38,551 bases of DNA, from assembly GCA_003278705.1 (NCBI GenBank), contig QCDR01000014.1:1-38551 (forward strand), written 5' to 3'. Origin of the DNA: Prochlorococcus sp. AG-355-J23 (GTDB taxonomy: Bacteria; Cyanobacteriota; Cyanobacteriia; PCC-6307; Cyanobiaceae). The notes under the pieces are model-generated. The model saw only the letters and a list, made by a program, of their open reading frames with translations, was not told the DNA's origin and did not search any database. Made by a program: the position numbers and the translations under genes. Shown one piece after another: positions 1 to 5,562 of the stretch. Within the stretch, counting starts at the first letter, position 1, and every line of letters begins with the position of its first letter.

Positions 1-983
1 TAGTTTTCGTTGATTTCAATTGCACTAAGAAACAACTCTTCTGCTTCTTTTAACTTGTCCAGATCGATTTTAGTTGATCCTAAATTAACATAAGCTAATT
101 CAAATTTGGGATTGTATTTAATAGCTTTTTCAGTGAATTTTTCTGCCTCAGGAAGATTGCCCTGCTTTGATAGAAGGGAACCGAGATTACTATAAGCAAG
201 AGAAAAATCTGATTTTATCTCAATAGCTTTTCGGTAACAGAGCTCTGCCTCCTTGTTCTTTTTTTTGTTGGAAAGGATATTTCCTAAGTTATTTAGTGCG
301 ATTGGTGAAGATGCATTTATATTAAGAGCCTTTCTTAAGCATTGCTCTCCTTCATCAAATTTCTCTAATTCATTTAATACTGCTCCAAGATTAGTAAGGG
401 CAAAATCATAACTAGGGTTAATTTCAAGAGCATCTTTTAAGAATCTTTCAGCTTGCTTAGAGTTTCCTGAATCTTTCAGAACACATGCTAAATTGACTAA
501 AGAATTAATATCTTTTGGGTTTATTTCTAAACTCTTTCTCAAAATAATTTCTGCTTTTTCAAGATTACCTTCTCCTACTAGTATTCTGGCCAAGATTGAA
601 TAGGACTTTAAATATTTGGGATTTAATTCAATAGCTTTATTTAAAATTCCTATGGCAATATCACTTTTCCCCTTAATAACAAGCACATTCGCTAAATTAG
701 TGTATGCTTCTAGACTATTTGGAAATCTTTTTATTGATTCATCAAATAATGATATTGCTTTATCAAAATGTTTACTTTGACAATATATGCTACCTAGATT
801 AATGAATATCCTAGGGTCATAAATTTTATTTTGAATTAAAAAATTGTAAATTTCTGAAGCCTCTTTAATTTTGCCATTTGTATGTAATGAAAATGCATTG
901 GATATTAATTGATCTCTTTGTAGTGTATTAGCTGTTTTTATTGACTTCTTAGTCTTTACTTTATTACTTCCGAACCCTTTCAT
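1..983 (-). CDS. TPR-repeat protein (partial, 3' end outside window)
   Basis: The reading frame opens at the ATG (complement of 981-983) and runs off the left edge with no stop: 327 codons are visible. After about 30 polar residues it is built of 34-residue tetratricopeptide repeats. At least six consecutive full repeats are visible, with the pattern NP....A..NLG..L...G....AE...RKALEI. TPR arrays are protein-interaction scaffolds. In marine picocyanobacteria such arrays often precede a sulfotransferase or glycosyltransferase domain, and the gene at 2522 has exactly that layout, so a catalytic C-terminus beyond the window is possible but not seen. The gene is divergent from the first porin. 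Function is unknown. Confidence 0.85.
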   Translation of the reverse strand, partial: MKGFGSNKVKTKKSIKTANTLQRDQLISNAFSLHTNGKIKEASEIYNFLIQNKIYDPRIFINLGSIYCQSKHFDKAISLFDESIKRFPNSLEAYTNLANVLVIKGKSDIAIGILNKAIELNPKYLKSYSILARILVGEGNLEKAEIILRKSLEINPKDINSLVNLACVLKDSGNSKQAERFLKDALEINPSYDFALTNLGAVLNELEKFDEGEQCLRKALNINASSPIALNNLGNILSNKKKNKEAELCYRKAIEIKSDFSLAYSNLGSLLSKQGNLPEAEKFTEKAIKYNPKFELAYVNLGSTKIDLDKLKEAEELFLSAIEINEN

Positions 984-1337
984 TTCTTCGAATTCTAAAA
1001 ATTAAGATCTTTTATAAAATAAACTTAACTTTGAATTATCAAAAATGTTGCCTAGAAGTTAATAATTCTTATGAATCTCAACATTAAAATCAATAAAGTT
1101 ATTTGCAAAAGGACACAAATACTATCGTCACATCTTAATTTATTTTATTTAAACGTTTTCTAATTTTTCTTCTAAACCCCTTTTATGCCAGTCGTTCTTA
1201 TATTCTCAATAAGTTTTTTTTAAAAGAATTAAAAAAAATAATTATGATTCCAAACAAAATGTAGCTGTTTATACTTGAAATTACAATAATTTTTACAGTA
1301 ATATAAAGTGTCCTTTAAATTTCGTGTGAGGAAATTT
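984..1337. other. 354-bp divergent intergenic region
   Basis: This non-coding stretch lies between the leftward TPR gene and the rightward porin. It is very AT-rich. Its right end holds the candidate porin promoter (1275-1304) and the ribosome binding site GAGGAA (1328-1333). A 7-bp inverted repeat (AATGTTG near 1043, CAACATT near 1079) lies close to the TPR gene start and is weak. I found no convincing small gene or RNA here. The porin frame can be read back to a GTG at 1308, but the start at 1338 is far better supported. Confidence 0.6.
1275..1304 (+). promoter_or_regulatory. Candidate sigma-70 promoter of porin copy 1
   Basis: TTGAAA at 1275-1280 and TAATAT at 1299-1304 are separated by 18 bp. 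This would place transcription start near 1311, giving a leader of about 27 bases before the ATG at 1338. Two TTACA motifs lie in the spacer (1281 and 1293), 12 bp apart. They resemble RpaB HLR1 half-sites, but the spacing is not canonical (10 bp expected). The call rests on pattern matching in AT-rich DNA. Confidence 0.4.
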
Positions 1338-2381
1338 ATGAAGCTTTTTAAGAGCTTACTAGTAGCTCCTGCAACATTAGGCTTACTTGCCCCTGTTGCT
1401 GCGACTGCTAACGAAGTCACTATTAATGATTTCAATGCTGCAGAAGAAATTGCAGTTACAAATAGTCGTATAGACGGTTTAGAAGCTAGATTCAACAATC
1501 TTGAGGCTGGCTCATTCTCCGAGACAACTACAGCATCTTTCGGTGTTGATTTTCTTGTTGGTGCTGAAGACGGTGCTGCTTCAGAGGCAGCAGCATTTGG
1601 CTACCAAATGGGTATCGGCTTAGAAACTAGTTTTACTGGTGAAGATGCACTTAGTGCAACTATTGATATAGGTGATGGTACTTCAGGCGCTTTAGCTTTT
1701 GATGATACTGCTGATGTACTAACACTTGACGGACTTACATATACATTCCCAGTAGGTGGTGCAACAGTAATGGTTGGTGATTCAACTGACATTAGTGCTT
1801 TATATACTGGAGCTTGTGCTTATAGTTCTTTCACTGATTACATGGGTAACTGTGGAACAGGAAGTACTGTTGGTGTAGGCGGTAATGGTGTTACTGCAGC
1901 AATGTCATACGGTTTTGATAGCGGATTCTCATTAGCTGGTGGTGTATCTTCTGAGACTGAATCAATTTTGACAGAAGAAGGTTCTGATCTTTTCGGTATT
2001 GAAGCTGCATACACTGCAGATTCTTACGGAGTAGCAGTTGCTTATTCTGATTCAGAAGGAACAACTGGATGGGGAATTAACGGTATGTATGCCTTTGATT
2101 TCGCTACTTTAAGTGCTGGTATTGAATCTGTTGATGATGGTACAACAGCTGAAGGATTCTTTGTTGGTTTAAGTTTCCCTGAAGTTGGACCTGGTAGTTT
2201 GGACATAGGTATGGGAACTACAGGTAACTTCGCAGATGGTGATGAAGAGTACTACACCTATGAAGCTTCATACGCTTATCCAATAAACGATGGAGTAACA
2301 ATCACTCCTGGTGTTTACATCATTGAGCAAGATGGCGATGACGTTACTGGTGTCGCTTTAAAAACTTCATTTAGTTTCTAA
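1338..2381 (+). CDS. Outer-membrane porin, copy 1 (SLH-less)
   Basis: The product is a 347-residue beta-barrel of the type annotated as porin (Som/OprB-like) in marine picocyanobacteria. It would allow passive entry of small solutes across the outer membrane. I chose the ATG at 1338 because GAGGAA sits 4 bases upstream and a normal signal peptide follows (MKLF, then a hydrophobic stretch ending near residue 24). Residues about 44-58 carry the short helical DGLEAR...LEAG linker that in larger porins follows the SLH domain; no SLH domain is present. The barrel begins near residue 60 (FSETTTASF), has two Cys (160 and 172) suited to a loop disulfide, and ends in Phe, as outer-membrane barrels do. 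Residues 60-347 are identical to residues 70-357 of the copy at 4420. Confidence 0.9.
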   Translation: MKLFKSLLVAPATLGLLAPVAATANEVTINDFNAAEEIAVTNSRIDGLEARFNNLEAGSFSETTTASFGVDFLVGAEDGAASEAAAFGYQMGIGLETSFTGEDALSATIDIGDGTSGALAFDDTADVLTLDGLTYTFPVGGATVMVGDSTDISALYTGACAYSSFTDYMGNCGTGSTVGVGGNGVTAAMSYGFDSGFSLAGGVSSETESILTEEGSDLFGIEAAYTADSYGVAVAYSDSEGTTGWGINGMYAFDFATLSAGIESVDDGTTAEGFFVGLSFPEVGPGSLDIGMGTTGNFADGDEEYYTYEASYAYPINDGVTITPGVYIIEQDGDDVTGVALKTSFSF

Positions 2382-2450
2382 TTAAATTAGTTTAATTATT
2401 AATTAAAACTACACACACAAAAGACCTACCTTTAAGGTGGGTCTTTTTTT
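1514..2450 (+). repeat. 937-bp direct repeat, copy A (porin barrel plus terminator)
   Basis: Reading the two loci side by side with an offset of 3112 bases, I see no mismatch from 1514 to 2450. The identity starts abruptly at the codons for FSETTTASF, covers the rest of the porin, the stop, the 3' untranslated region and the terminator, and stops inside the terminal T-run. The flanks are unrelated beyond general family similarity. Identity at silent sites points to recent gene conversion or duplication. Confidence 0.9.
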
Positions 2451-2451
2451 T
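2419..2451 (+). terminator. Rho-independent terminator of porin copy 1
   Basis: A 12-bp stem (2419-2430 with 2436-2447, one G-U pair) has a TTTAA loop and runs into eight Ts. It lies about 40 bases after the porin stop and separates that gene from the sulfotransferase gene. The same hairpin occurs at 5531. Confidence 0.9.
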
Positions 2452-2521
2452 GTCGTAAGCCATGTGAACTGAAAAAAATGTATCATTCATTTAGATGGCA
2501 TTATTTCTTCTAAAATAAATA

Positions 2522-4339
2522 ATGAAATACGATATAGCAGAAATATCAAAATATATTCAAATTGCAAAAAAGAATCATAATGAAGGAAAAATATATCAAG
2601 CTAATGAAATCTATAGGAAATTAATCGATCAAAAAATCTACACACATGAGTTACTTATTTCATACGGAAAATTTTGCAAAGAAATTAATAATCTAAAGAT
2701 TGCAAAAAATTTATTTTTTTTATCTATCAAGAAATATCCCTTAAAAATTAATTCATATATATTACTTGCTGAAATTTTAAGAAAAGAGAACAATATTAAC
2801 GATGCTTTAAAAACATTGTATGCAGCAAAGAAAATAGAAAAATTAAATTCTGAAATTGACTATAATCTATCTATCACATATAAAACTATTAATTCATTTA
2901 AAGAAGCAATACTTTCTATTGACTCTGCCATTAATCAGAAGCCTGATAATCAAATATATATAATTTTAAAAGCCGATATACTCATTGATTCTTTAAAAAA
3001 TGATGATGCCAAAGAATTATTGCTTAATTTGAAATTACCAAAAGATAGCATTTTGTTTTTTCAAAGGGAAATTTTAATTTCGAAAATATTTGTTAATCAA
3101 ATGAAATTTAGATTAGCTGAAAAGGTTCTTTTAGACTTAAGAAAGTCATTTAGTAAAGAAAGAATTTTATATCTTAATCTGAGTGATCTTTATTTCAAAA
3201 ATAAAGAATTAGAAAAAGGAGTTTTAATTTTGAAGGAAGGTATTAAAAATTTTCCAAAATTTATTCCGTTGAGGTTTAATTTGGGAATTATGTACAGAAA
3301 TTTAGGTTTAATAGAGTTATCTATTAAGACACATTTGGAAATCTTGTCAGATGATCAATTTAATTCAAATAGTTATTATGAATTATCAACTATGTACAAT
3401 TTTTCAAATCATAATGAGCAATTAAAAACTCTTTTAAATATTGAAATAGGAAATCTCTCTCAAAAGGAAAAAATATACTTTAGTTATTCAAAAGCAAATG
3501 TTTACCATAACAACAAAGACTATAAAAAAAGTGCATATTTTCTCAAAATAGCTAATGAAGAAAAACTAAAGATTCAACCATCTGATATAAAGAAAAAGTT
3601 GAATACTGGTGAATACTTTAGGAATATAAAGATAGATCAGAATTTAAACTTTAAGAAAGTAAAGGATAGTAATCGATATTTATTTATTGTTGGAATGCCT
3701 AGGTGTGGAAGTACATTGCTAGAAAGTATTTTAAGTCTTAATCCTGAAGTAAAAGATCTTGGAGAGGTTTCCTTTTTAGAAGAATCTCTCCAAAAATCTG
3801 ATGATTTGCTTGAAGTTAAAAAACTATATAAAGAAAAAGTCATGCTGATTAACTCAAAACAGAAAATTTTTACAGATAAAAATTTGTTTAACTTTTTATA
3901 TTGTCCAATTATCTATGAATTGTTCCCTAATGCAAGGATTATTCACTGTATTAGAAATCCACTTGATAATATTTTGTCTATCTATAGAACTAATTTTATA
4001 AATCAAAGTTTTTCAAGTTCATTAAATGATATTTCTGATTTATATTTGTATCATCTAAAGCTTATGAAAGAATATAAAAGCAAATTTGGATCAATAATTT
4101 ACAGTTATGAACATGAAAAGGTAGTTCGAAATTCTAAAGAAACTATTCAAGATTTAATAAATTGGCTTGATTGGGAATGGAGTGAAAAATACCTCTCACC
4201 TCAAAAAAGTAAAAGAAGTGTATTCACAGCAAGTAGTGCTCAAGTTAGAAAAAAAATAAATACCAATTCCTCTGGCTGTTGGAAAAATTATGAGGATTTA
4301 TTAGAACCGATTAGTAAGCTATATCCCAAGTACAATTAA
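2522..4339 (+). CDS. TPR-sulfotransferase
   Basis: The 605-residue protein has about 360 residues of degenerate TPR-like helical repeats followed by a sulfotransferase domain. The 5'-phosphosulfate loop is GMPRCGSTLLES near residues 391-402. The 3'-phosphate-binding segment is RNPLDNILSIYR near 478-489. These are the two PAPS-contacting signatures of the Sulfotransfer family, so transfer of sulfate from PAPS to a hydroxyl group is the likely reaction. The acceptor is unknown; relatives act on tyrosines or glycans. No signal peptide or membrane segment is evident. Location between two near-identical porins, with terminators on both sides, suggests a separate transcription unit. It starts at the ATG at 2522, with only a poor ribosome binding site. 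It is strongly AT-rich, like other island-type genes. Confidence 0.85.
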   Translation: MKYDIAEISKYIQIAKKNHNEGKIYQANEIYRKLIDQKIYTHELLISYGKFCKEINNLKIAKNLFFLSIKKYPLKINSYILLAEILRKENNINDALKTLYAAKKIEKLNSEIDYNLSITYKTINSFKEAILSIDSAINQKPDNQIYIILKADILIDSLKNDDAKELLLNLKLPKDSILFFQREILISKIFVNQMKFRLAEKVLLDLRKSFSKERILYLNLSDLYFKNKELEKGVLILKEGIKNFPKFIPLRFNLGIMYRNLGLIELSIKTHLEILSDDQFNSNSYYELSTMYNFSNHNEQLKTLLNIEIGNLSQKEKIYFSYSKANVYHNNKDYKKSAYFLKIANEEKLKIQPSDIKKKLNTGEYFRNIKIDQNLNFKKVKDSNRYLFIVGMPRCGSTLLESILSLNPEVKDLGEVSFLEESLQKSDDLLEVKKLYKEKVMLINSKQKIFTDKNLFNFLYCPIIYELFPNARIIHCIRNPLDNILSIYRTNFINQSFSSSLNDISDLYLYHLKLMKEYKSKFGSIIYSYEHEKVVRNSKETIQDLINWLDWEWSEKYLSPQKSKRSVFTASSAQVRKKINTNSSGCWKNYEDLLEPISKLYPKYN

Positions 4340-4358
4340 TTAGATGGCTTATCATGTT

Positions 4359-4386
4359 TTGCAATTAATTTATTTTGCACTAAAAT
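4359..4386 (+). promoter_or_regulatory. Candidate promoter of porin copy 2
   Basis: TTGCAA at 4359-4364 and TAAAAT at 4381-4386 are 16 bp apart, just after the sulfotransferase stop. The ribosome binding site GAGGAA (4409-4414) is shared with copy 1 as part of a common TGTGAGGAA leader motif. Confidence 0.35.
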
Positions 4387-4419
4387 AAGATGACAAATAA
4401 TTCTGTGTGAGGAATTTTT

Positions 4420-5493
4420 ATGAAGCTATTCCAGCAATTATTGGTAGCTCCAGCAGCACTTGGTCTTTTAATACCTTTATCTGCTAGTGCTTCCGAAGTT
4501 AATCTTGATGCTATTTCTAAATACTCTGAAGATGATTTAGAGATAAATGGTAATTTATTTAAACAAAATAATACCCTTCTTTCAGGTGGAGAAGGATTAG
4601 TTGAAAGTGAAGATTTCACTGGTGGATTCTCCGAGACAACTACAGCATCTTTCGGTGTTGATTTTCTTGTTGGTGCTGAAGACGGTGCTGCTTCAGAGGC
4701 AGCAGCATTTGGCTACCAAATGGGTATCGGCTTAGAAACTAGTTTTACTGGTGAAGATGCACTTAGTGCAACTATTGATATAGGTGATGGTACTTCAGGC
4801 GCTTTAGCTTTTGATGATACTGCTGATGTACTAACACTTGACGGACTTACATATACATTCCCAGTAGGTGGTGCAACAGTAATGGTTGGTGATTCAACTG
4901 ACATTAGTGCTTTATATACTGGAGCTTGTGCTTATAGTTCTTTCACTGATTACATGGGTAACTGTGGAACAGGAAGTACTGTTGGTGTAGGCGGTAATGG
5001 TGTTACTGCAGCAATGTCATACGGTTTTGATAGCGGATTCTCATTAGCTGGTGGTGTATCTTCTGAGACTGAATCAATTTTGACAGAAGAAGGTTCTGAT
5101 CTTTTCGGTATTGAAGCTGCATACACTGCAGATTCTTACGGAGTAGCAGTTGCTTATTCTGATTCAGAAGGAACAACTGGATGGGGAATTAACGGTATGT
5201 ATGCCTTTGATTTCGCTACTTTAAGTGCTGGTATTGAATCTGTTGATGATGGTACAACAGCTGAAGGATTCTTTGTTGGTTTAAGTTTCCCTGAAGTTGG
5301 ACCTGGTAGTTTGGACATAGGTATGGGAACTACAGGTAACTTCGCAGATGGTGATGAAGAGTACTACACCTATGAAGCTTCATACGCTTATCCAATAAAC
5401 GATGGAGTAACAATCACTCCTGGTGTTTACATCATTGAGCAAGATGGCGATGACGTTACTGGTGTCGCTTTAAAAACTTCATTTAGTTTCTAA
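4420..5493 (+). CDS. Outer-membrane porin, copy 2 (SLH-less)
   Basis: The 357-residue porin has a barrel (residues 70-357) identical to that of the copy at 1338, including the Cys pair and terminal Phe. Only the first 69 residues differ. It begins MKLFQQLLVAPAALG and has a signal peptide ending near residue 24. It then carries the LDAISKYS...LEING segment that in full-length picocyanobacterial porins precedes the SLH domain, followed by a short Gly/Glu-rich linker. The SLH domain and the DGLEAR linker are both missing. The two copies therefore look like different shortened versions of the same ancestral N-terminus. Start is the ATG at 4420 with GAGGAA 5 bases upstream. The gene has its own terminator. 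Confidence 0.9.
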   Translation: MKLFQQLLVAPAALGLLIPLSASASEVNLDAISKYSEDDLEINGNLFKQNNTLLSGGEGLVESEDFTGGFSETTTASFGVDFLVGAEDGAASEAAAFGYQMGIGLETSFTGEDALSATIDIGDGTSGALAFDDTADVLTLDGLTYTFPVGGATVMVGDSTDISALYTGACAYSSFTDYMGNCGTGSTVGVGGNGVTAAMSYGFDSGFSLAGGVSSETESILTEEGSDLFGIEAAYTADSYGVAVAYSDSEGTTGWGINGMYAFDFATLSAGIESVDDGTTAEGFFVGLSFPEVGPGSLDIGMGTTGNFADGDEEYYTYEASYAYPINDGVTITPGVYIIEQDGDDVTGVALKTSFSF

Positions 5494-5562
5494 TTAAATT
5501 AGTTTAATTATTAATTAAAACTACACACACAAAAGACCTACCTTTAAGGTGGGTCTTTTTTT
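4626..5562 (+). repeat. 937-bp direct repeat, copy B
   Basis: This is the partner of 1514-2450, in the same orientation, with no difference seen on reading. Recombination between the copies would excise the sulfotransferase gene and leave one hybrid porin. Confidence 0.9.
5531..5562 (+). terminator. Rho-independent terminator of porin copy 2
   Basis: The stem, TTTAA loop and T-run match those at 2419, here with seven Ts before the sequence diverges at 5563. Confidence 0.9.

Follow-up and report, generated by a model that had tools for sequence, protein, structure and literature searches.

In Prochlorococcus, two neighbouring porin genes are paralogs of long standing whose upstream regions, signal peptides and N-termini are specific to each locus, and whose barrels are very probably kept alike by recurrent gene conversion. 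The first-pass annotation had ascribed the identity of the two copies to gene conversion, and comparison with relatives at the sequence level bears this out, since N-termini sort with their locus and barrels with their genome, also in one-contig genomes. The window (the whole stretch analysed, 38,551 nucleotides) is one entire contig of genome G000, an assembly of 1,452,025 bp in 59 contigs (84.81% complete). Loci and genomes are numbered below with L and G, respectively.

Window locus

Porin copy A (1338 to 2381, plus strand; 347 amino acids) has a signal peptide and a type-A N-terminus, coiled-coil-like by eye, followed by a barrel common to copy B. Copy B (4420 to 5493, plus strand; 357 amino acids) has a type-B N-terminus with LLSGGEGL and the same barrel. 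Between them lies a 605-amino-acid gene (2522 to 4339, plus strand) with a Sulfotransfer_3 domain (E, 7.9e-25) preceded by TPR repeats. The block had been described as perfect down to its silent sites, 3' untranslated region (UTR) and terminator, and base-by-base matching agreed: positions 1514 to 2450 and 4626 to 5562 (both plus strand) form a maximal exact match of 937 bp with 0 mismatches (barrel pair pS = pN = 0), taking in the barrel, the stop codon, the 3' UTR and an intrinsic terminator (2419 to 2450 in A, stem 2419 to 2447; 5531 to 5562 in B, stem 5531 to 5559; both plus strand). Counted from ATGs at 1338 and 4420, the third base of codon 59 (A) or 69 (B) is the first base of the block, one base 5' of the FSETTTASF codons; the other end lies 72 nt past the final sense codon, within the T-run that follows the identical terminator. 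The edge at FSETTTASF is as abrupt as first noted, and the first 59 or 69 codons do differ: the N-terminal coding segments upstream of it share only 54.8% alignment identity, and the bases flanking the block differ between the copies at both edges. A chance origin of the match is excluded because the other four direct-repeat families of at least 25 nt in the window are short, imperfect pairs (28 to 46 nt, 72 to 86% identity). Promoter-like sites were no commoner than in shuffles (23 versus 23.4), so promoters were left unplaced.

Upstream of porin A, a TPR gene (3 to 983, minus strand) runs off the end of the contig, and the gene at the equivalent position in several relatives also matches the sulfotransferase weakly.

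Barrels across genomes

Of 151 genomes searched, the window's own among them, at least 114 gave matches at an E value of 1e-30 or below. A named genome collection supplied 23 loci, and loci were also taken from high-completeness genomes. Genomes in which a single contig held both matches were preferred in sampling, so the counts, made among the matches listed, describe pairs and not the whole genus. After removal of 12 duplicate loci and of L131 (same genome as L012), 55 pairs remained, the window's included, with barrels of no two genomes more than 97% alike; the identity comparison includes pairs L023, L079 to L082 and L087 to L089.

The nearest relative of a barrel was the other copy in the same genome in 52 of the 55 pairs. 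Within-genome barrel identity was 100% in 32 of 55 and at least 99% in 48, between 95 and 99% in 2, and below 95% in 5 (L015, 92.3%; L090, 88.7%; L129, 70.8%; L096, 70.3%; L097, 66.3%). Between genomes, median barrel identity was 60% at the nucleotide level and median pS was 0.597, i.e., about 60% of silent sites differ. Trees of the window's 13-genome clade paired the barrels by genome in 13 of 13. Homogenisation is not universal, because L096 and L097 (the latter from a 5-contig genome) and L129 (from a one-contig genome), 3 of 55 pairs at 66 to 71%, have diverged; L015 (92%) and L090 (89%) are homogenised in part only. Nor does closeness alone force it, as these three diverged neighbours and those at L113, L114 and L116 (below) indicate.

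N-termini, flanks and the intervening gene

For the N-terminal segment, the nearest relative lay within the same genome in merely 2 of 52 pairs, the count being made without L007, L023 and L102, which have no full front. Median N-terminal identity between genomes was 79% for A-A and 61% for B-B comparisons, against 58% for the A-B comparison inside one genome. Trees of the window's 13-genome clade separate the N-termini into an A clade and a B clade with 100/100 support. The 5' and 3' flanks likewise match by locus across genomes, with few weak cross-matches. Three pairs have N-termini nearly common to both copies (L074, 95.5%; L094, 99.5%; L100, 98.3%), and fronts can therefore be overwritten, but seldom are. 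Of 49 pairs, 28 have the sulfotransferase gene between the two porins (order porin, sulfotransferase, porin in L073 of G015), and the remaining 21 are plain tandems; repeat starts are 2.9 to 3.3 kb apart with the gene and 1.2 to 1.4 kb apart without it.

The annotation had also proposed a barrel kept uniform behind an N-terminus free to differ. Uniformity within genomes was confirmed by the 48 pairs at or above 99%; freedom of the N-terminus was not, since that of copy A is the part most conserved between genomes, with a median pN/pS of 0.17 against 0.54 for the variable barrel (rough ratios, because silent sites are near saturation).

Several single loci are recorded here. The window's B N-terminus (4420 to 4625) is unusually distant from those of relatives (76% at best; tree branch, 0.26). 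At L007:7001-7220 (AG-670-M15), an in-frame stop codon just before the FSETTT edge may truncate the B porin, or may be a sequencing error. L102 (G067:C18:7600-12900) has a mixed B front, EVTINDFNPA followed by ETLLAGGEGLVD, in which A-type pieces are joined to B-type pieces; its copy A has no full front in frame. L101 (G028:C3:107800-114700) is a triple tandem in which barrels 1 and 2 are 100% identical and the third is at 75.8%.

These data bear on whether the second copy was simply born anew in each lineage, its identity marking recent duplication and not conversion. The nearness of the copies and the existence of one-copy loci would suit such births; a fresh duplication would also copy the N-terminus, which is nearly common in just the three pairs named above, and it would have to account for separate A and B clades, for upstream and downstream flanks that stay distinct across genomes and for a sulfotransferase gene intervening in more than half of the pairs. 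We consider it very improbable.

Assemblies

A collapsed barrel written twice by the assembler could likewise give identical copies. Assemblies are fragmented for many pairs, the window's own 59-contig genome among them, and repeats of 0.9 kb are difficult to resolve in such data; contigs of some relatives break at or in the barrel (L028, L029, G152, G164 and G091). Nine one-contig genomes of the genus were among the matches listed, and seven of them have the pair. Six of these seven agree with the general pattern, with barrels at 100% in L127 (G160), L130 (G153) and L075 (G108), 99.9% in L128 (G155), 99.8% in L080 (G041) and 99.3% in L073 (G015), so assembly does not explain it; the seventh is the diverged L129 (G159). 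The remaining two have one copy (G050) and one copy next to a diverged one (G022). As the flanks of each copy also differ and match the same locus elsewhere, there is little chance that the identity is an artefact.

That protein-level selection alone holds the copies identical, as a trimeric-porin fold and the high expression of the MED4 homologs PMM1119/PMM1121 (PMC3898218) might lead one to expect, is scarcely credible, since the window's silent sites, 3' UTR and terminator are identical too, silent sites diverge as far between genomes as given above, and the identical proteins with many silent differences that it predicts occurred in 0 of 55 pairs (five pairs had identical barrel proteins with any nucleotide difference, their DNA being 99.8 to 99.9% identical).

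Tract edges

Recurrent conversion, the reading that we favour, has edges at a consistent place. The block starts at A codon 56 to 62 in 34 of 49 pairs, and at B codon 68 to 80 in all 33 of those 34 with a full B front; its end lies 47 to 132 nt beyond the final sense codon in all of the 34 but L089, where it lies within the gene. Among the other 15 pairs, five (L026, L073, L087, L088 and L103) have a longer front and start at A codon 72 to 77; in the remainder, homogenisation reaches further, is partial or is absent, or the pair is cut. Block-edge rows for the tandem loci L090, L096 and L097 were artefacts of overlapping search ranges, and identities for these loci are from the barrel comparison.

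In a permutation test, which assumes no rate differences along the gene, differences between copies were clustered in L015, L089, L079, L090 and L012 (P = 0.0005 each) and in L016 and L073 (P about 0.03); L080, L088 and L100, with 2 to 4 differences each, were not significant. Clustered differences stand next to identical runs of 156 to 620 columns in L015, L089, L079 and L090. The diverged pairs L096, L097 and L129 were also clustered (P = 0.0005 to 0.017), with longest identical runs of just 21 to 48 columns.

Protein structure and family

A model of copy B has 16 strands from residue 74 (pLDDT, 61.9; pTM, 0.57; moderate confidence), with residues 1 to 71 and 163 to 188 as low-confidence parts. 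The model matches the general porins OmpT/OmpU, OprB, Omp32 and OmpF (best Foldseek E value, 6.5e-11), and VIA-align gave Z scores of 20 to 21.5, mostly aligned from about residue 70 to 357. On this model, the barrel is predicted to have the general fold of trimeric porins (OmpF/OmpU/Omp32-like), and the block would be the whole 16-strand barrel plus the terminator; the conversion edge falls at a domain border, with porin folds aligning from model residue 70, B's block edge. Sequence entropy across 78 loci was 1.35 to 2.40 bits in connections after odd strands and mostly lower, 0.13 to 1.41 bits, after even strands; by porin topology, the former are probably extracellular loops. The structure alignment held 33 of 35 listed genes (without L007's B copy, L019 and L027), and a profile search of solved structures with this 33-row alignment gave nothing at an E value of 1 or below.

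Against NCBIfam NF033921 (por_somb, iron uptake porin), A scored 61.2 bits and B 41.6 bits, below the curated cut-off of 100, which places both as SOM-like relatives and not as NF033921 members. Against Pfam OprB (PF04966; gathering cut-off, 22.9 bits), A scored 14 bits and B had no match. A third porin of the same genome (G000:C4:74033-75013, L003) has a longer N-terminus. In pairwise alignment, the A front aligns with the end of that N-terminus (RVDGLEARVNGIEAG) and the B front with an earlier part (LNNLIAGGEGL); the two fronts, which correspond to separate stretches of it, look like truncations of a single ancestral front domain that complement each other. The third porin had no domain by Pfam search, so the label "SLH-like" was rejected for it.

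Yfr1 sites

Each gene is preceded by a putative Yfr1 site, GTGTGAGGA (1324 to 1332, plus strand) before the ATG of A, complementing the conserved Yfr1 sRNA motif, and TGTGTGAGGA (4404 to 4413, plus strand) before the ATG of B. The complement to the Yfr1 of L135 and L137 is perfect over 9 nt before A and 10 nt before B, and of 131 full genes, 129 have GTGTGAGG, complementary to the Yfr1 motif of relatives, no more than 30 nt from the ATG. A Yfr1 gene was not found in G000 (84.8% complete assembly) and was present in 12 of 12 relatives searched. The porins of this locus are related to som-1/som-2 (PMM1119/PMM1121) of MED4, two porins described as arising from gene duplication and as Yfr1 targets (PMC6778093, PMC3898218), with repression by Yfr1 via the PMM1121 5' UTR reported (PMC6778093).

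One-copy loci

Recombination between the direct repeats had been predicted to delete the intervening gene and fuse the porins, and the corresponding form occurs in relatives, where the upstream flank is of A type and the downstream flank of B type at 13 of 23 one-copy loci. One of the 13 is in a one-contig genome (L112, G050) and another on a 596-kb contig of the 5-contig G151 (L134); the assemblies of the other 11 are more fragmented and may have collapsed a repeat. A sulfotransferase search in 9 of the 13 genomes found none at an E value of 1e-30 or below in six, and in G147, G050 and G139 found matches of only 34 to 40%, at other places. The A-front/B-flank form is what repeat recombination would leave, and one copy may be derived or ancestral. 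Of the other one-copy loci, 5 are cut by a contig end, L115 and L118 match neither flank type, and L113, L114 and L116 have an A-type downstream flank followed by a diverged porin.

Replaced barrels

In the clade of 13 genomes to which the window belongs, the sulfotransferase gene places L010 beside L022, and L013 beside L008 and L009. Both barrels of L010 group instead with L011 (96.5% versus 83.7% to L022), and both barrels of L013 with L014 (91.4% versus 83.7% to L008). For these groups, which were picked after inspection of barrel and sulfotransferase identities, forcing the barrels to the sulfotransferase grouping was rejected (AU P = 3.7e-58 and 4.3e-11), as was forcing the sulfotransferase to the barrel grouping (AU P = 3.6e-34 and 1.8e-68). 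In these two lineages, both barrels have been replaced and the sulfotransferase gene between them has not. In L013, the A N-terminus goes with L014 (91.5%) and the B N-terminus with L008 and L009 (93.6% to L008), which suggests that the new barrel entered at A and was then copied to B; one donor could also have replaced the two separately, a less simple account.

Discussion

We propose that RecA-type homologous exchange copies the barrel between the close direct repeats, and that conversion would halt at the N-terminus mainly since homology ends there. A foreign barrel would arrive at one copy by homologous recombination and then spread to the other, and one-copy loci with an A front and a B flank would result when these repeats recombine with each other. 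The short locus-specific N-termini are presumably periplasmic.

The outcome is one pore type per cell behind two different front ends, with pores that differ widely between species. Candidate reasons for keeping the copies alike are dosage, mixed trimers, neutral recombination and coordinated escape from phages or grazers. The last is a tentative idea, which we think somewhat unlikely: a foreign barrel that enters one porin might be spread by conversion to both, so that the whole porin coat changes. If true, such switching would matter where the variable loops are bound by phages or grazers, since a cell with the old barrel in even one copy would stay sensitive; the two upstream regions and two N-termini would meanwhile keep separate expression and anchoring options. 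Since 48 of 55 pairs share a barrel at 99% or more, loops on one face vary between species and the edge falls at a domain border, the pairs form a natural many-species set for asking why duplicate surface genes stay identical.

A literature search of titles and the starts of abstracts, with most subscription journals outside it, returned no report of porin homogenisation in Prochlorococcus, and the available portions of the papers on MED4 PMM1119/PMM1121 (PMC6778093, PMC3898218) do not mention domain-wise homogenisation. Long-lasting concerted evolution with conserved synteny has been described for psbA/psbD and other genes in prokaryotes, including cyanobacteria (PMC6053082), where, as here, paralogs of one species group together at both silent and coding sites. 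That set belongs mostly to important complexes and pathways (PMC6053082), whereas in the porins one domain is converted and varies between species; neither porin nor Prochlorococcus is mentioned in the available main text of that paper.

The Helicobacter pylori pairs babA/babB and homA/homB are a further parallel. Within a strain, concerted evolution keeps their 3' segments similar but not their 5' segments (PMC3960876, citing Pride and Blaser 2002); RecA-dependent recombination within the genome is considered likely for bab, and the copy number of these paralogs varies (PMC3960876). Both systems thus consist of outer-membrane paralogs of variable copy number, with the 3' part homogenised within a strain or genome and the 5' part not. 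In bab, the 5' and middle regions are reported to be alike between strains (PMC3960876), whereas in Prochlorococcus the whole barrel with its loops is converted, and this is the part that varies between genomes, only a short front being locus specific. The difference from the known parallel is that, in Prochlorococcus, the cell keeps uniform the very part that is exposed and that varies from genome to genome.
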